Source: Methylobacter sp. KS41 (GTDB lineage Bacteria; Pseudomonadota; Gammaproteobacteria; Methylococcales; Methylomonadaceae). Taken from it: 64,000 nucleotides of DNA. The stretch is taken from NCBI GenBank assembly GCA_002862125.1, contig PHSP01000003.1, positions 744,001 to 808,000 of the forward strand. Direction: 5' to 3'. The notes beneath the pieces were generated by a model, which saw only the letters and a list, made by a program, of their open reading frames with translations, made no database searches and was not told the origin of the DNA. Below, piece by piece: positions 16,833-53,450 of the stretch (its first letter is position 1; the number at the start of each line of letters is the position of its first letter). A program made the position numbers and the translations under genes.

Positions 16833-17747
16833 TTATTCGGGGGTTAACTTCGATAGCGTTTTAAGATTTTCCTGAGCTTTTGGGAAATAAACGGGAGATT
16901 CATCAATCGCTCTTCTAAGATATTCATCCGCCACATCGTACCGGCCGATCAGCATGCTTATATAGCCGACATTGTTATAGGAATCATAAACGGGCATTAT
17001 TCTATTAAAGAGAGCGACTGCATTCGAAAAATTGCCGTTTTTAATTTCAATCAGCGCCAGATTATGAATTGCGCGCTTGTAGCGGTTGTCATAGCTTAGT
17101 GCCTGATTAAAATAGTATTTTGCTTTGATTTCATCCCCGGACAGATAATACGAATAACCAAGATTATTTACCACCATCGGATTAGTTGGCTGTATTGCCA
17201 GAGCGGCCTGGTAATGGGCAATAGCCTCAGCGCTTTTACTTTCCAGGTCTGCAATTACGCCGAGCCCATTTTGGGCTTTCCAGTTATTGTTATTAAGCCT
17301 TACTGCGTTGGTAAGATAGTCTTTTGCCTTAGCGGTTTGACCGATTTCCAAAAAATACAAGCCCAGGTATTCATTGGCGGCCAGATTATTGCTGTCAATT
17401 GTTAAAATCTCCTGATATATTTTAAGCGCTAATTCAGGATGCTTGTTGCCGCTATGAATGGCGGCAATATTCTCAAGCGCTTTAATATTATGTTTGTTAA
17501 ATTGCAGGGTTTTGACGAAATAAAACAGGGCATTCTCTGACTTTCCTTCGTTTAATGCGGCTTCTGCCTTGGCGAAAGCCTGTTCTTCCGTTTTTACATC
17601 GGGGTCGAGCAAATTTAAAATATTTTCAGAACTGTTAAGGCTGTTTTCGTCCTGATTGGATTTAAAAGTATTTGGATTGCAAGCGCTGATAATAAATGTT
17701 GTTATACAACTGATGGCAAGAATACTGAATTTCTGGGATATTATCAT
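16833..17747 (-). CDS. tadD: Tad pilus TPR lipoprotein TadD
   Basis: 304 aa. Lipoprotein signal peptide with lipobox ISAC (Cys at residue 23), then at least six TPR repeats from about residue 50 to 290 (for example ALENIAAIHSGNKHPELALKIYQEILTI in part). In Tad systems TadD is an outer-membrane-linked lipoprotein needed for secretin RcpA assembly, comparable to PilW for type IV pili. It is the last gene of the minus-strand tad cluster, 17 bp after tadC. Confidence 0.88.
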   Translation of the reverse strand: MIISQKFSILAISCITTFIISACNPNTFKSNQDENSLNSSENILNLLDPDVKTEEQAFAKAEAALNEGKSENALFYFVKTLQFNKHNIKALENIAAIHSGNKHPELALKIYQEILTIDSNNLAANEYLGLYFLEIGQTAKAKDYLTNAVRLNNNNWKAQNGLGVIADLESKSAEAIAHYQAALAIQPTNPMVVNNLGYSYYLSGDEIKAKYYFNQALSYDNRYKRAIHNLALIEIKNGNFSNAVALFNRIMPVYDSYNNVGYISMLIGRYDVADEYLRRAIDESPVYFPKAQENLKTLSKLTPE

Positions 17748-17764
17748 ATTAAGTTAAAGTAGAA

Positions 17765-18718
17765 TTAGTGAGATAGCGCCTGGTAAATCGAAATAACAGC
17801 TGGCCCAAGGATAACGACAAAAATGCCTGGAAAGAAACAAAAAGCCAAGGGAAACATCATTTTAACAGCAAGTTTAGCCGCTTCTTCTTCAGCTTTCTGC
17901 ATGCGTTTATCTCTAAGATCTTCCGCGAAGACTCGTAAGGTATTGCCGATACTGGTGCCGAAACGCATGCTTTGGGCAAGCGCTGAAACCAGCCCGCGAA
18001 TTTCTTCCACGCCGGTTCTCGAGACCAGGTTTTTTAAAGCCTGCTCTCTGGCGACGCCGGCTCTTAATTCGGCATTGACCAGACCAAGTTCATAACCCAT
18101 GACTTCATTGCTTAACACCGTGTCTTTAGCAACCCGCTGCAGACCCGCATCCAAACCAAGGCCGGCTTCGGTACAAACGATTAGCTGATCAACCGCATCC
18201 GGAAAAGCGTTTCTGATAATCCGTTTTCTGGCATCAACTTTATTGTCAAGATAGAAGCTGGGAGCAATTAAGCCGAATAACAAGCCGGAACTGACAAATA
18301 GCAACAAGGCCATCGAAGATAACTGAGGCAGAAACGCCGTGCAAACCAGAAATATCAGGACAGGCAGGCAGGTTGTTAACAGGATTTTGATGCCGTAATA
18401 ATGGGATAAACTGTTTTTCTCATGATATCCCGCATGTAACAGGCGCTCACGGTCGTAGTTAAGGGTTTCGCCGGCTCTTTCCCTGATAACAAAGTAGCTG
18501 CCCAAATTTTGAGGCACATTCCGGAAGAATTTGTTTTTATGTTGATCGCCGGTCAGCTCATTTAAACGGGTCCTTACCGGGTTATACATGCCGATAAATA
18601 AAAAATAAAACGCCAATACCAAAGCAATGGCGGCGCTCGCGAATAAGATCATTACCAGCCGCTGACCCAAGACGGGGTCGCCGGATATGCCTAGGATAAA
18701 CTGAATAATACGATCCAT
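17765..18718 (-). CDS. tadC: Tad pilus inner-membrane platform protein TadC
   Basis: 317 aa GspF-type membrane protein. Membrane segments lie near residues 18-45, 110-155 and 290-312, and the GspF/TadC cytoplasmic core includes FPDAVDQLIVCTEAGLGLDA and VEEIRGLVSALAQSMRFGTS. With TadB it forms the platform that couples the ATPase TadA to Flp pilin polymerisation. It follows tadB after 9 bp. Confidence 0.93.
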   Translation of the reverse strand: MDRIIQFILGISGDPVLGQRLVMILFASAAIALVLAFYFLFIGMYNPVRTRLNELTGDQHKNKFFRNVPQNLGSYFVIRERAGETLNYDRERLLHAGYHEKNSLSHYYGIKILLTTCLPVLIFLVCTAFLPQLSSMALLLFVSSGLLFGLIAPSFYLDNKVDARKRIIRNAFPDAVDQLIVCTEAGLGLDAGLQRVAKDTVLSNEVMGYELGLVNAELRAGVAREQALKNLVSRTGVEEIRGLVSALAQSMRFGTSIGNTLRVFAEDLRDKRMQKAEEEAAKLAVKMMFPLAFCFFPGIFVVILGPAVISIYQALSH

Positions 18719-46994: not shown

Positions 46995-48572
46995 TTAACT
47001 CGGTTTTTCTACAATTTGCTGATGAATAATTTGGTAGATATCGAAAAAACTTCCTCTAAATTTAAGGTTTAAGTTTTTCAAATCGATAGTTGATAAGTTA
47101 TTAAATCTTATGGAAATAAGATAATCGAAATCCTGCTGCCAGGTTTCCCAATAAACTTTACAATTAACACCATATAAATCACCATTTTTATATTTATGAT
47201 TAATTAAATCATTAAAAGTGAGATTAGGGCTGGCAGCTGTATCGATATGTTCTGTTCTGGAAGTTGGATAAATTGAATTGCCATAAGTGAAAAGATTTGG
47301 CCAAAAAGTTGAGCGCTGAATGATTGATAATGCGGGCATGTGGTCATAAAGCCGTGGATTATAGCCAGTTAGATTTTTAGCGTCATCCTGAATAGCTAAA
47401 ACCTTGGAGCCTCTATCGACATATTGCAAAGCATTTTCAAACTCCTGATACTGTTGATTTATTTTTTTCCAGTTATCGGAGACATAATAGATTTTATAGC
47501 AGGTAATTGCAAAAACAAGCACTAATAAGTAATTTCTTGAATGTAGGGCATTTTTATTATTTTCATCAAATTTAATAGAAACAACGAATAATGCCATAAA
47601 AATGAAAGGATATCGGAAATCCGTCCCCCATGTTCCTGCCAGTGAACTGGGCATCAAAATTACTACTATCAAAAGGGATAATAAAGGAATCTTCATATTG
47701 TCATATATGCCGACCCCACCCGGATGAACAAGTCTTAAGATGAAAACTGATATTAGTATTAAAAGGATTAATAACAAATCATGTTGGCTAAAATCAAAAG
47801 CAAATGGCGAAAACAAGGCAATTATTTTTGCGGTAAAGTCACCATAATTATAGAAAACAAAGGGGCCGTTTTGAGTGTAATTACTCCACCAAATAAAATA
47901 TAAAATAAACGGCAACAAAAACTGGGATAAAGTTTTTACTGTATTAGCTGAAAATAATTTGTTATTTGCATATTTAATTAATCCTGATTCGTAACCAATC
48001 ACAAAGATAGCGTAAACTCCCAGCGCATACAGATGACAAAAGTAAAGCGCTGTAGAAATAGCGGAAAATAACAATATATTTGCAATAGTGTTAATATCTC
48101 TTAATTTAATCCACAACCCCATTGCAATTAATGCAAGCCCTGAGCTAACGTAGTAATTAACAAAACCAAAAAACAGAACGTAATTATAAATTAGAGTAAA
48201 TATTGCGCAGGTCCATAAATCAACATAACCATTAATGACTTTCCTTATTAATAGGCCGCCAGCGCATATAAATAGAATCCCTGAAATAAGGACAATTCTG
48301 CCCGCCAGATATATATCAACATATCTGGCTAACACCCCGCCAAACCATTCTATTATGATATAGGGTTTTGCAACCCATTTTATTAAATAATTTTCTCTTA
48401 ACCATTGATCATTATCAATATTTGCTTGAATATAAAAGCTTGTTAAATGATTAGGATAATCAACTAAAATAGGAAATTTGAATATTATAAATGGCGAGAT
48501 TGTCAACAAAAAAAGAAATGCAAAACAACAAAAAATGACATATCTATTATCTGTTTTTAATTTCGACAACAT
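46995..48572 (-). CDS. Large multi-pass membrane protein of the glycan locus
   Basis: 525 aa from ATG 48572 (an ATG at 48605 would read through a gtrA remnant and is disfavoured). Around eleven membrane segments; first loop ILVDYPNHLTSFYIQANID, a GT-C-like acidic loop. The C-terminal soluble domain ends NLKFRGSFFDIYQIIHQQ. A broken relative of its last 60 residues lies at 49.9-50.1 kb. Possibly a polyprenyl-sugar-dependent transferase; unproven. Confidence 0.6.
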   Translation of the reverse strand: MLSKLKTDNRYVIFCCFAFLFLLTISPFIIFKFPILVDYPNHLTSFYIQANIDNDQWLRENYLIKWVAKPYIIIEWFGGVLARYVDIYLAGRIVLISGILFICAGGLLIRKVINGYVDLWTCAIFTLIYNYVLFFGFVNYYVSSGLALIAMGLWIKLRDINTIANILLFSAISTALYFCHLYALGVYAIFVIGYESGLIKYANNKLFSANTVKTLSQFLLPFILYFIWWSNYTQNGPFVFYNYGDFTAKIIALFSPFAFDFSQHDLLLILLILISVFILRLVHPGGVGIYDNMKIPLLSLLIVVILMPSSLAGTWGTDFRYPFIFMALFVVSIKFDENNKNALHSRNYLLVLVFAITCYKIYYVSDNWKKINQQYQEFENALQYVDRGSKVLAIQDDAKNLTGYNPRLYDHMPALSIIQRSTFWPNLFTYGNSIYPTSRTEHIDTAASPNLTFNDLINHKYKNGDLYGVNCKVYWETWQQDFDYLISIRFNNLSTIDLKNLNLKFRGSFFDIYQIIHQQIVEKPS

Positions 48573-48681
48573 TTTTGTTCCAGGTAAATATTGATGATAA
48601 CGCATAATTCAGGACAGCTCCGATTAACGCGCCTGCTGTGCCGACGATAGCCCAGTTTATGCTTTTTTCATAGAGCATGTC
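48570..48681 (-). pseudogene. GtrA C-terminal remnant
   Basis: The minus-strand frame reads MLYEKSINWAIVGTAGALIG and then AVLNYALSSIFTWNKN, matching the last 37 residues of the intact GT2-GtrA protein at 50141-51232 (NINWAIAGTAGALIGAVLNY). The rest of the gene is absent, replaced by hepT. Its end overlaps the start of the 525-aa gene, so an ancestral gtrB-gtrA/525-aa gene pair is implied. Confidence 0.75.
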
Positions 48682-48708
48682 GGCGATCGCTATGTCATAG
48701 CGATCGCC
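48682..48708. repeat. Perfect 27-bp palindrome at the hepT 3' end
   Basis: GGCGATCGCTATG, one central base, CATAGCGATCGCC. It includes the last codons and stop of hepT and carries GCGATCGC twice. It sits exactly where the GtrA remnant begins, marking a junction or acting as the module's terminator. Confidence 0.7.
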
Positions 48709-49097
48709 TTGGCAAATTCTGAAAAATCCGCAAGGTGATGTTTCGCAATGCTATGCACAATTTCCCAGTTGATAGCTTCATAGTTGTGAACAGCGATATT
48801 ACGAAATCCTACTGCCTTTTTAAGTCTGTTTGCCAATTCCTTATTTAAAATACCTTCCTGCGCCAGTAAATCGAAAGTTTGTCCCATGGTGTCAGGAGGC
48901 GGTGCATCCATGCCTGCAATCAGATGTGCGCCGATATCCACTGAGATTTGCACCGCGCGACTTAGATTAAGCGAGATGATGTCTTGAAGATCAATGTCCG
49001 AGACAAGCGTGGCGGCATCCGTTGGGCACTTCGTTTCTATGCGCCGCAAACAGCGCCGTAACGATTCCAATTTCTGCTCGACTACTTCCCGATCCAT
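48690..49097 (-). CDS. hepT: HepT-type HEPN toxin
   Basis: 135 aa. HEPN-domain RNase signature RNIAVHNY (R99-x4-H104-x-Y106), the Rx4HxY motif of HepT. It cleaves RNA when free; the partner MntA inactivates it by adding AMP to the Tyr of this motif (known for the family). Its start overlaps the end of mntA by 16 bp. Cytoplasmic. Full length, catalytic residues intact, so likely functional. Confidence 0.93.
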   Translation of the reverse strand: MDREVVEQKLESLRRCLRRIETKCPTDAATLVSDIDLQDIISLNLSRAVQISVDIGAHLIAGMDAPPPDTMGQTFDLLAQEGILNKELANRLKKAVGFRNIAVHNYEAINWEIVHSIAKHHLADFSEFAKAIAMT

Positions 49098-49519
49098 GCC
49101 ATCCGCCTTTCTGCAAGCAGTCTGGTCCGATAGGGCATAAAGTCTGCCTGTTCAAACAGATGGCGGCTAATCAACTCGCCGTATAAGGTATCGCTGCCCG
49201 TTATTCTTCTACCGTGCCGCAGTATTTGCCCAAGCAAGGGCTCAGGTGCTACCTTCAGATCGATCAAATCAATGGGCCGTCCGGTACAATCTGCTAACGC
49301 GCGGATCAGTGCTATTTTTTCATCGACACTCAGCGCTTGTTTAGCAGCAACCGCTATATCCAAATCACTGTCCGCACCTTGACAACCCAAGGCCACAGAA
49401 CCAAATAGCATTGCGAAAGCGATCTCCGGAAAATGCGTCAAAACTTCCTTGAGTTGCGCATCAATAGCCTGCGCAGTTTGAGATGCAGCTGTCGTTGTTG
49501 TCATCTGTTTATCGCTCAT
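49082..49519 (-). CDS. mntA: MntA-type nucleotidyltransferase antitoxin
   Basis: 145 aa. Minimal nucleotidyltransferase with GSVALGCQGADSDLDIAV: the G40-S41 and D52-x-D54 metal site are intact. In known pairs MntA AMPylates the HepT toxin. First gene of the pair; GGAG lies nine bases before ATG 49519. A family D repeat abuts its upstream side and may have replaced the native promoter region. Confidence 0.93.
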   Translation of the reverse strand: MSDKQMTTTTAASQTAQAIDAQLKEVLTHFPEIAFAMLFGSVALGCQGADSDLDIAVAAKQALSVDEKIALIRALADCTGRPIDLIDLKVAPEPLLGQILRHGRRITGSDTLYGELISRHLFEQADFMPYRTRLLAERRMAWIGK

Positions 49520-49532
49520 TTCGTACGGCTCC

Positions 49533-49839
49533 GCTCATGCTCAAGGTCGTCATACCCGCCGGGAAGCTGGTATCCAGCGCCATGGCCTGCCCTGAGCGTA
49601 GTCGTATGGGACGGTAAGCTCAAATCCATCCATGGAGCCTGGATTCACAATGTACATCCTTGTAAATTGCCCTTTGGGTCAATGCAAATCGGCTGTCCTG
49701 CCGATTTGTCCGGCACAAATCTGTCAGGAACAGATTTGCATTAACCCGAAGGGCATCAGGCAGAATAGCCTGATGTGAATCCCTTCCGGAATGACGACCT
49801 TGAAAAATAGTGATCATATAATCTGACAAAGTAGAGCTA
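49533..49839. repeat. Family D repeat, copy 2 (left end truncated)
   Basis: About 307 bp closely matching 53129-53450. The right end reads CTGACAAAGTAGAGCTA, the inverted terminal repeat of the family, while the left terminal repeat has been lost beside mntA. The interior contains CCCTTTGGGTCAATGCAAAT pairing with ATTTGCATTAACCCGAAGGG around two smaller hairpins (cruciform). Confidence 0.75.
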
Positions 49840-49856
49840 ATGAAAAATCACGCATA

Positions 49857-50144
49857 TTTTTACCCGCTTGGCAGGTATGGCGTCAGTCAACAATTGCTAC
49901 CAACGTTTCGTCAAGATGCCAGTGCGGATACCAATTTAAACACACCCTTTCTGTTTTGCGAAATAACAAGCTTAAAAATGGCGATGCTTTAGGTAATGGC
50001 TTAATTGTGTATTGGGAAAACTGGACCCAGGATTTTGATTATCTTATTTCAATTCGGTTTGAAAATTTATCTGTTATAGATATACAGAATGTTAAGTTGA
50101 AATTCAGAGGCAGTTTTTTCGATATTTATCAAATTGTCCATTAG
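49857..50144 (+). pseudogene. 3' fragment of a relative of the 525-aa membrane protein
   Basis: From about 49974 the plus strand reads NGDALGNGLIVYWENWTQDF and then DYLISIRFENLSVIDIQ, FRGSFFDIYQIVH and stop. This closely follows the C-terminus of the 46995-48572 protein (QDFDYLISIRFNNLSTIDLK, FRGSFFDIYQIIH). Upstream resemblance is in another frame (QDASADTNLN), suggesting a frameshift. No start region, so a broken copy. It converges with, and touches, the GT2-GtrA gene. Confidence 0.75.
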
Positions 50145-51232
50145 GGTTTTGTTTTTCTCCAGGTAAACATTGATGATAACGCATAATTCAGGACGGCTCC
50201 GATTAACGCACCTGCCGTGCCGGCGATAGCCCAATTAATATTCATTTCGTATAACAGACTGGCAAAGGCTACATTTAAAAAAGCGGCTACGGAACAAACC
50301 ACATAAAAACTTAATAATCCAAGAAATAGCCTTTTGCCATGCAGTTTTTTATCCCGGTAAGTAAAGCTGTTATTTATAAAATAATTACTGGTCATGGCAA
50401 TGTAGGTGGCGATGGTCTGCGCCCAGATGAATTGGGTGCTGATGACTATATGGAATAGGGTCAGGACAAATAGATGCACGGCTACGCCGGTCAAGCCGAC
50501 CAGTGAAAACAGGATGAATCTGACCGGAATGATCTTGCCGAATAATTTATGACAGAGTAATCCGATAAACTCTAGCGCGATGGTGGTGTCAAGTTTACTG
50601 TCTCCGCTATGCCGGGTGTTAAATTTAAGCGGTACCTCGATAAAGTTTAACGGCCTTTTGGATGAAGCAAAAATATCCAGCAGGATTTTGAAGCCCTTGC
50701 CGTAAAGCCGCGGGGATAGTTCGTGCAATACTGACTTTCTAAGCATGAAGAAACCGCTAAGCGGGTCTGTCAGCCGGGCTTTTAACACCATCCGGCTTAA
50801 CAGATTGCCGATATTCGATAGCAGTTCCCGCTTTGCTGAAAAATCACCCAGTTCGGCGCCTGGCGCGAACCTGCTGGCTACCGCAATGTCCAGCGGATTT
50901 TTATAAAAATCGGCAAACATGAGGGGCAGTAAGGTTTCATCATGCTGCAAATCGGCATCCATCACGGCGACGATAGGGGCGTTACTGGCTAGCATGCCTT
51001 CGATGCAGGCCGACGACAAGCCTGTTCTGTTTATTCTGTGAATCGTCCTGATATTTTGATGTTGCGAGGAAATCTGATTGAGCAGCTCCTTTGTGCCGTC
51101 AGCCGAATTATCGTCTACAAAAATGATTTCCCAATTTATTTCTTTCAGTACAGCGGATATTTTGTTACAAAGCAGCTCTATGTTGCCAACTTCGTTTAGC
51201 GTGGGCACTACGATCGAAAGTTCGTATGACAT
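50141..51232 (-). CDS. GT2 glycosyltransferase with C-terminal GtrA domain
   Basis: 363 aa from ATG 51232 (MSYELSIVVPTLNEVGN); a longer reading would overlap the divergent gene. GT-A part: IIFVDDNSADGTKELL, MDADLQHDETLLP, SGFFMLRKSVL. From about residue 230 four membrane helices form a GtrA-like domain (FILFSLVGLTGVAVHLFVL, YFINNSFTYRDK, NYALSSMFTWRK). Known GtrB/GtrA pairs make and flip undecaprenyl-phosphate sugars; here both are one chain. Confidence 0.9.
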   Translation of the reverse strand: MSYELSIVVPTLNEVGNIELLCNKISAVLKEINWEIIFVDDNSADGTKELLNQISSQHQNIRTIHRINRTGLSSACIEGMLASNAPIVAVMDADLQHDETLLPLMFADFYKNPLDIAVASRFAPGAELGDFSAKRELLSNIGNLLSRMVLKARLTDPLSGFFMLRKSVLHELSPRLYGKGFKILLDIFASSKRPLNFIEVPLKFNTRHSGDSKLDTTIALEFIGLLCHKLFGKIIPVRFILFSLVGLTGVAVHLFVLTLFHIVISTQFIWAQTIATYIAMTSNYFINNSFTYRDKKLHGKRLFLGLLSFYVVCSVAAFLNVAFASLLYEMNINWAIAGTAGALIGAVLNYALSSMFTWRKTKP

Positions 51233-51267: not shown

Positions 51268-53052
51268 ATGGTAGATATGCTTGATCAATTAACTTCCCCG
51301 TTTGAACTGTTTTTAACAAATAACGAAAGGGTCTATTGGCTATATTTGCTATCCTCCGTCACGATAGCTTTTTTTTTGTTTGTTGTCCATAAGCAGGACT
51401 ATGCCGGACAAGGGAAAAGCGCATTGGCTGTTATTTTCCCAAAAAACGTTTTTTGGCACCGGTCATCAATTAATGACTATTTGTTTTTTTATACCGGTTT
51501 GCTATTTCAGGCGGCCTTCATTGGGGCGCTGTTTTCATCATTGTCTGTTGTGGTGTCTTATCTTACTGAAACCGGGCTGAATGTCTGGCTGCCTGTGTTC
51601 AAGGGCAAGTTGCAAGGCATTTACGGCAGCGGTTTACTGGGTACCTTGATTCTGGCGGCCGCCGCTGATTTTGCGCTGTTTTTCAGCCATTTTTTGCAAC
51701 ACAAGATGCCGTGGTTATGGGAGTTTCATAAAGTTCATCATTCTGCGGAAGTGATGACGCCGATTACCGTATTCAGAATGCATCCGGTAGACAATGTTCT
51801 GGCATTTGCCATGGGCGGCCTGTTTTCAGGCGCGGCGCTGGGCTGCATGGTTTTTTTCATGGGGCATAATATCGTTTTGTACAATGTTGCCGGGGTTAAT
51901 GCGATTTTGATTCTCTTCTATCTGGCGGGCTACAATCTAAGGCATTCGCATATCTGGTGGAACTGGGGGCCAATTTTCAGCAGGATTTTTATCAGTCCGG
52001 CACAGCATCAGATACATCATAGTTCCGCTCCTGAGCATTTCGACAAAAACCTGGGTTTTACTTTCGCTTTTTGGGACGGCTTGTTTGGCACCTTATATAT
52101 CCCTAAAGGGAAGGAGAATATCAATTTCGGTTTGGGCGCCGAAGAAAATGAAAAGTTTTCCACCTTCTGGAGTTTATATTTAATGCCGTTTATTAATTTG
52201 TATCATAATTTCAGATTTAATATGCTTTTAGAGCCCAAACGCTATTTGTCGCTTCTGGTTTTTTTGATCGTTGTGCTGCCGGCTGTCTACTTGAGCAATA
52301 AAGGTTCGGAACCGGTGAGCTTTCCGGGAAATGTTTATCTTGAGGATATGACCTGGCAGGAAGTCAGGGACGCGATAAGTAACGGCTCAACTACTGTTCT
52401 GGCGCCGACCGGCGGCACCGAGCAAAATGGACCGCATGTTGTTCTGGGTAAACATAATTACATTGTCAAATACACGGCAGGCAAGATAGCGGAAACCCTC
52501 GGAAAAACGTTGGTTGCTCCGGTGATTAGTTATGTGCCTGAAGGCTCTATTGTCCCGGCTGAGGGACATATGCGGTTTGCTGGAACCCTGTCTATGCCGG
52601 AAGCGGAGTTTGAAGCTGTTTTGGAATCTGCTGCGCGCAGCTTGAAGCAGCATGGTTTTAAAACGATTGCTTTTATCGGCGACAGCGGCGGAAATCAGGC
52701 GGCGCAGAAACGGGTAGCGGAACGCTTGACCAGGTTATGGCAAAATGAGGGAGTTCGAGTCATTAATGTCAACGATTATTACGAAGCTAATTCGCAAAGC
52801 GCGTATTTGCTGAATAATGGTTATTCTGAATTACAGATCGGAAGTCATGCCGGAATAAGGGATACCTCGGAATTAATGGCGGTTTTTCCTGGCGGGGTAA
52901 GAACAGGACTTAAAGTTAATCACATGGATTCCGATTTTTCAAAAACCGGAGCCGATGGCGATGCCGGCAAGGCCAGTTCGTTTTTAGGAAATATTTTGCT
53001 AGATTTAAAAATTGAAGCCGCCGTTAAACAAATCAGGAAGGCTTCAGGGTAA
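51268..53052 (+). CDS. Fatty-acid/sterol hydroxylase fused to a creatininase-family domain
   Basis: 594 aa. Residues about 20-320 are a membrane di-iron hydroxylase: several helices plus the His clusters H141-x3-H145, H154-x2-HH (FHKVHH) and H247-x2-HH (HQIHH). A further hydrophobic helix (about 325-343) precedes a complete creatininase-like domain (about 355-594): LAPTGGTEQNGPHVVLGKHN at 378-397, EGHMRFAGTLSMP at 432-444, IGDSGGNQ at 470-477, IGSHAGIRDTSELMAVFPG at 524-542. Some usual metal ligands differ (EQN instead of EQH, GDSGGN instead of NGHGGN, RDTS instead of EETS). No stop or shift between the parts. Substrates unknown. Confidence 0.85.
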   Translation: MVDMLDQLTSPFELFLTNNERVYWLYLLSSVTIAFFLFVVHKQDYAGQGKSALAVIFPKNVFWHRSSINDYLFFYTGLLFQAAFIGALFSSLSVVVSYLTETGLNVWLPVFKGKLQGIYGSGLLGTLILAAAADFALFFSHFLQHKMPWLWEFHKVHHSAEVMTPITVFRMHPVDNVLAFAMGGLFSGAALGCMVFFMGHNIVLYNVAGVNAILILFYLAGYNLRHSHIWWNWGPIFSRIFISPAQHQIHHSSAPEHFDKNLGFTFAFWDGLFGTLYIPKGKENINFGLGAEENEKFSTFWSLYLMPFINLYHNFRFNMLLEPKRYLSLLVFLIVVLPAVYLSNKGSEPVSFPGNVYLEDMTWQEVRDAISNGSTTVLAPTGGTEQNGPHVVLGKHNYIVKYTAGKIAETLGKTLVAPVISYVPEGSIVPAEGHMRFAGTLSMPEAEFEAVLESAARSLKQHGFKTIAFIGDSGGNQAAQKRVAERLTRLWQNEGVRVINVNDYYEANSQSAYLLNNGYSELQIGSHAGIRDTSELMAVFPGGVRTGLKVNHMDSDFSKTGADGDAGKASSFLGNILLDLKIEAAVKQIRKASG

Positions 53053-53128: not shown

Positions 53129-53450
53129 TAGTTCTACTTTGTCAGATTATGCTCAATCACGTCATACCCGCCAGGAAGCGGGTATCCAGTGCCATGGCCT
53201 GCCCTGAGCGTAGTCGCATGGGACGGTAAGCTCAATTCCATCCATGGAGCCTGGATTCACAATGTACATCCTTGTAAATTGCCCTTTGGGTCAATGCAAA
53301 TCGGCTGTCCTGCCGATTTGTCCGGCACAAATCTGTCTGGAACAGATTTGCATTAACCCGAAAGGCGTCAGGCACGACGCCTGACGTGAATCCATGCCGG
53401 AAAGACGATCTTGGAAAATAGTGATCATGTAATCCGACAAAGTAGAACTA
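53129..53450. repeat. Family D repeat, copy 1 (complete)
   Basis: 322 bp bounded by inverted repeats TAGTTCTACTTTGTCAGATT (left) and AATCCGACAAAGTAGAACTA (right). It shares about 280 bp with 49533-49839, including the cruciform with GCAAATCGGC/GCCGATTTG arms, and the core GTCATACCCGCC shared with family C. In the spacer between the fusion gene and oadG. Confidence 0.8.

Follow-up and report, generated by a model that had tools for sequence, protein, structure and literature searches.

The gene described here lies in a stretch of 64,000 nucleotides of contig PHSP01000003.1 of the methane-oxidizing bacterium Methylobacter sp. KS41, hereafter called the window (Table 1). It is a single unbroken open reading frame of 594 codons in the ORF listing and encodes an N-terminal domain of the membrane di-iron hydroxylase type that is followed by a transmembrane linker and a C-terminal creatininase-fold domain. 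Both domains are recognized by Pfam above the curated cut-offs: FA_hydroxylase (PF04116) matches residues 127-275 (E 3.6e-21; 76.4 bits vs. a cut-off of 31; profile positions 2-132 of 132), and Creatininase (PF02633) matches residues 359-588 (E 8.2e-36; 124.1 bits vs. a cut-off of 31.3; profile positions 1-237 of 238). A first-pass annotation made from the sequence alone had described one 594-codon frame with three hydroxylase His clusters, a full creatininase-like domain, an extra hydrophobic helix between the domains and the altered creatininase motifs EQN, GDSGGN and RDTS, all of which are confirmed. The helix spans approximately residues 326-344, and H141/H145, H154/H157/H158, H226/H228 and H247/H250/H251 are all invariant among four Methylococcales orthologues. 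One residue assignment needed correction, as position 397, given as His, is Asn, and the conserved His that follows EQNGPH is H396. By profile search, the fusion is the sole Creatininase match of its own genome, where three further FA_hydroxylase genes are found elsewhere.

Upstream, the fusion gene is neighbored by a divergent gene for a fused glycosyltransferase and GtrA membrane domain, beyond which a gene for a large membrane protein is found. Direct copies of a dispersed element (positions 49530-49839 and 53142-53450 of the window; 233 nt at 94% and 72 nt at 88% identity) flank the fusion gene together with the divergent glycosyltransferase gene. A gene pair on the reverse strand at positions 48690-49519, which encodes an MNT-type nucleotidyltransferase and a HepT-like protein, is likely a toxin-antitoxin module.

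Table 1. Features of the fusion gene and its neighbors in the window. Residue equivalences are from an alignment to Pseudomonas putida creatininase.
Feature	Position	Strand	Basis or remark
Fusion gene, 594 aa	51268..53052	+	membrane di-iron hydroxylase-type domain, transmembrane linker and creatininase-fold domain
FA_hydroxylase Pfam domain, residues 127-275	51646..52092	+	Pfam profile
His clusters 1 and 2 (H141-X3-H145; H154-X2-HH158)	51688..51741	+	sequence and ortholog alignment
H226/H228 and His cluster 3 (H247-X2-HH251)	51943..52020	+	sequence and ortholog alignment
Extra transmembrane helix, residues 326-344, after PKR (likely in-to-out anchor)	52243..52299	+	hydrophobicity
Creatininase-fold domain, residues 355-594, predicted periplasmic	52330..53049	+	Pfam, alignment and Foldseek
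EQNGPHVVLGKH motif	52420..52455	+	E385 kept (E34 of P. putida creatininase), N387 for H36, H396 for D45
DSGGNQ motif (D472-Q477)	52681..52698	+	S473 for H120, G475 for E122
HAGIRDTS motif	52846..52869	+	H527 kept (H178), D532 for E183
Fusion of DPM-type glycosyltransferase 2 and GtrA membrane domain, divergent neighbor	50141..51232	-	start at about 51232 likely, judged from the L006 orthologue
Large membrane protein, no Pfam match	46995..48605	-	one of the queries by which membrane proteins of the GT-C-like kind are found at several paired loci

Predicted Topology and Fold

The fusion protein has hydrophobic stretches at residues 22-40, 72-96, 121-139, 177-195, 202-220 and 326-344. The His clusters of the hydroxylase superfamily face the cytosol and the residues PKR precede the last helix of the fusion, so that this helix would lead outward. 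Signal-peptide-like N-termini were found by a simple and crude test in 27 of the 29 unfused homologues of the second domain, and the transmembrane helix of the fusion stands where these homologues have their signal peptide. For these reasons the second domain is predicted to be periplasmic, which lends support to the earlier proposal that the extra helix crosses the membrane to the periplasm. No good cleavage site was seen in the linkers of the Methylococcales fusions, from which we infer an uncleaved membrane tether.

Models were built by AlphaFold from an input of four sequences. The mean pLDDT is 42 for the full-length protein and 60 for the creatininase domain (pTM 0.64), whose model is only partly confident, and the residues of the site fall within or next to segments of the domain model with pLDDT below 50. 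All 21 PDB matches of the domain model found by Foldseek at E <= 0.001 are creatininase-family structures, with TM scores of about 0.6. The second domain is thus predicted to have a creatininase fold, as far as a partly confident model can tell.

The Altered Creatininase Site

The binuclear metal ligands of classic creatininase, which we take to be E34, H36, D45, H120 and E122, are not retained as a set: only E34 is kept, and N387, H396, S473 and G475 are found at the remaining four positions. The first-pass annotation had called the site non-standard, which is borne out, and the changed residues are themselves conserved across approximately 40 homologues. In an alignment of 41 homologues, one row of which does not cover the domain's N-terminal part, the residues E385, Q386 and H396 show no variation (40 of 40), H434 and D472 are each found in 40 of 41, H527 is found in all 41, and 39 of 41 have D or E at position 532. 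For the creatininase domain, dN/dS is 0.139 in the comparison with L006 and 0.114 in that with G172 (L063), with similar values for the hydroxylase part; these two comparisons were used, the remaining ones being saturated or less reliable. Both domains are therefore under purifying selection, with dN/dS of 0.11-0.14 in two comparisons. Given this selection and the conservation of the residues across homologues, the altered motifs do not reflect decay.

Fused and Separate Forms in Other Genomes

The same architecture, which the first-pass annotation had suggested seeking in other genomes, is found in six further Methylococcales genomes and four genomes of another class. The whole fusion is present in L006 (84% identity), G172 (73%), L007 (68%), L008 (66%), G190 (60%) and G184 (58%), that is, with its own genome included, in seven of the 201 Methylococcales genomes; a strong match of any kind is found in eight of the 201, one being a fragment at a contig end in G149 (83% identical). 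Given this patchy occurrence, the gene is accessory. The other four genomes (G602, G994, G976 and G966) belong to one order of another class of the same phylum. Among 369 genomes sampled across the class, the genome that contains the window was the only one in which the fusion was seen, and the hydroxylases (about 308-347 aa) and creatininases (278-299 aa) are separate. A scan of viral contigs found no relative. In L064, the creatininase domain has a further, truncated copy (17451-17984) near the fused gene, with neighbors that look transposase-like from the beginnings of their ORFs. Tad/Flp pilus-like genes, recognized from gene beginnings and clustering only, are found near the fusion in L007, L008, L063 and L065 and were not seen in the window.

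The two parts are also encoded by adjacent genes on the same strand, with the hydroxylase first, in eight genomes (G571, G946, G947, G948, G1292, G1198, G1294 and G999). The stop and start codons of the pair overlap by four bases (ATGA) in G571, G1292 and G1198; for instance, a hydroxylase of 332 aa in G571 overlaps in this way with a signal-peptide-bearing creatininase of 264 aa. In G1016, the pair is divergent and includes a distant hydroxylase, and creatininases of the same subfamily are found without a hydroxylase in G901, G617, G1004, G1254, G1340 and G338. Three changes are needed to explain the fused state in the creatininase tree, in which the deepest split is weakly supported, and 20 of the 25 rows on its DSGGNQ-type side are fused or adjacent to a hydroxylase. 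In a quick tree, G966 and G999 have hydroxylases that belong to another hydroxylase subclade, which suggests that the pairing arose more than once.

Genes Near Paired Loci

Glycosyltransferase 2 or GtrA genes are found near seven of the 20 loci where the two parts are paired, one of the 34 lone-hydroxylase loci and none of the 19 loci that have a creatininase without a paired hydroxylase. The matches at the paired loci are of the glycosyltransferase 2 type at all seven and of the GtrA type at five. Compared with the other loci combined (1 of 53), this enrichment has a Fisher p of 0.0003, which becomes 0.002 if close relatives are pooled by lineage, figures that are optimistic because the queries were drawn from the same paired loci; the enrichment spans about five of roughly 16 lineages.

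Genes for DUF4856, imelysin, DHOR or FutA/FutB-like proteins lie beside 18 of the 34 sampled lone-hydroxylase loci, which were partly picked after the first solute-binding fusion had been seen, and beside none of the 20 creatininase-paired loci (Fisher p 4e-5). A TonB receptor gene is found at one paired locus, L130. The hydroxylase relatives with such neighbors are among L078, L169-L180 and L183-L187.

Comparison with Known Systems

By sequence and model, the second domain shares its fold with creatininase (PF02633; P. putida; PDB 1j2t, 3a6e and others), with a Pfam E-value of 8e-36 and a best PDB chain by sequence at E of about 1e-9. It keeps the equivalents of E34 and H178 but has N, H, S and G for H36, D45, H120 and E122 and D for E183, and it is predicted to be exported or membrane-tethered. 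The curated model of true creatininase (TIGR04448) was rejected, as the domain scores 65.7 bits against a cut-off of 235. MftE, a creatininase homologue that serves as the mycofactocin peptidase and exemplifies amide or peptide cleavage by the creatininase fold (PMC10885120), belongs to the same superfamily. The fusion scores 56.1 bits against the MftE cut-off of 172 (TIGR03964) and was not assigned to it; its second domain is also predicted to be exported and is partnered with a hydroxylase. IolN was likewise rejected by its curated cut-off. Among the named NCBIfam models, the one closest to the N-terminal half is the ornithine-lipid hydroxylase OlsE (NF052566), which shares with it the His pattern of the membrane di-iron hydroxylases (PF04116). 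OlsE is without a creatininase domain, and membership was rejected because the score of 55.3 bits falls short of the equivalog cut-off of 475.

Two further arrangements resemble the fusion in part. At L153 and L162, a hydroxylase of the same family carries a solute-binding domain (SBP_bac_6/SBP_bac_1 in Pfam) at its C terminus, with a hydrophobic helix in between; we read this domain as resembling FutA/FbpA. Judging from frame and BLAST, L171 is probably laid out alike. The C-terminal domain of these proteins (L153/L169 and L162/L170, probably also L171) is presumably exported, as in the creatininase fusion, whereas their partner is a solute-binding protein and their loci hold genes of the iron-uptake type. 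In a sister clade of creatininases, a gene for a YncE-like beta-propeller adjoins the creatininase gene on the same strand at 13 of 13 loci (L071-L076, L079 and L131-L136). These standalone, exported creatininases have E385, H396, H527 and D532 in common with the fusion but differ from it in carrying GDHGGYQ in place of GDSGGNQ and in being partnered with a propeller rather than a hydroxylase. A link to iron through this partner is weak, as the propeller scores 34.7 against the YncE cut-off of 400, although PMC5476278 cites a title that describes YncE of E. coli as iron-regulated.

The first-pass annotation knew of no described system of this kind. None was found in the literature searched, which lay mostly outside subscription journals, and no paper there joined the hydroxylase and creatininase families in a relevant way.

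Proposed Function

As the two parts recur either fused or as neighboring genes, it is very likely that they cooperate in modifying a lipid or lipid-linked molecule in a way not yet described. We give about even chances to the fusion being a two-domain inner-membrane enzyme that acts on a (glyco)lipid or lipid-linked substrate and is one of the fused versions of a two-component module that recurs among bacteria. In such an enzyme, the N-terminal membrane di-iron hydroxylase, with its His clusters in the cytosol, would use O2 to oxidize a lipid chain or a lipid-linked substrate. The uncleaved helix would hold the C-terminal domain in the periplasm, where this domain, judging from its fold, may hydrolyse an amide or similar bond on the same molecule. 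The altered site would consist of E385, H396, H527 and D532 and perhaps hold one metal in place of two. The shared substrate would most likely be a membrane (glyco)lipid or a polyprenyl-linked intermediate, because genes for DPM/GtrA-type glycosyltransferases are enriched near the paired loci. A hydroxylated lipid substrate, amide-type hydrolysis and a link to GtrA/DPM-type glycan assembly are conjectural parts of the model, as are the two successive steps on one molecule that the first-pass annotation had envisaged. A bolder version, which we hold to be improbable, is that of a new enzyme class, in which a cytosol-facing hydroxylase and a periplasmic, re-wired hydrolase each work on one face of a shared lipid-linked substrate (e.g., a lipid is oxidized and an amide-bound group is then removed in a GtrA/DPM-type glycolipid pathway) and in which overlapping genes of such a pair became fused on more than one occasion.

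Since H36, D45, H120 and E122 are replaced, the second domain may not hydrolyse anything, and the creatininase-like domain could instead assist the hydroxylase as a periplasmic partner that binds a metal or ligand, possibly in the handling of iron, as FutA-type proteins seem to do in related operons. The hydroxylase relatives fused to FutA/FbpA-like domains and the neighbors of more than half of the sampled lone-hydroxylase loci favor this role, which we nevertheless consider unlikely: the same neighbor genes are missing from all 20 creatininase-paired loci, the creatininase-paired hydroxylases fall mostly outside the iron-linked branches, and the conserved E/H/H/D set fits a catalytic site at least as well. 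A role of the fused pair in iron uptake, which the iron-type operons of hydroxylase relatives had suggested, was given less weight on account of the same 0 of 20 loci.

It is similarly doubtful that the two domains have different substrates and were fused only for co-localization or shared control. The creatininases of the same subfamily that occur without a hydroxylase and the constant propeller partner of the sister clade are consistent with such independence, but the two domains have been paired and fused repeatedly, the hydroxylase being first in every same-strand pair, which argues for a role shared by both domains in one pathway. Finally, a decayed, non-functional second domain or a fusion created by misassembly is very improbable. 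Although EQN, GDSGGN and RDTS depart from classic creatininase and both a truncated extra copy (L064) and a contig-end fragment (G149) exist, recurrence of the fusion in 11 genomes from separate assemblies rules out an assembly artefact, and its presence in relatives goes against the first-pass annotation's concern that they might all be without it. The low dN/dS ratios and the conservation of the altered residues, with no relaxed selection seen, likewise exclude decay.

Fusion and gene order tie together two large and mostly uncharacterized families, the membrane hydroxylases of the "sterol desaturase" type and the exported "creatininase family" proteins, and this tie is a concrete and testable clue to both. 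The associations with solute-binding and iron-type genes and with beta-propellers can direct functional studies of many genes that have no annotation. If true, the reading in which the two domains work on two faces of one substrate would add a novel type of membrane enzyme that modifies lipids or glycolipids.
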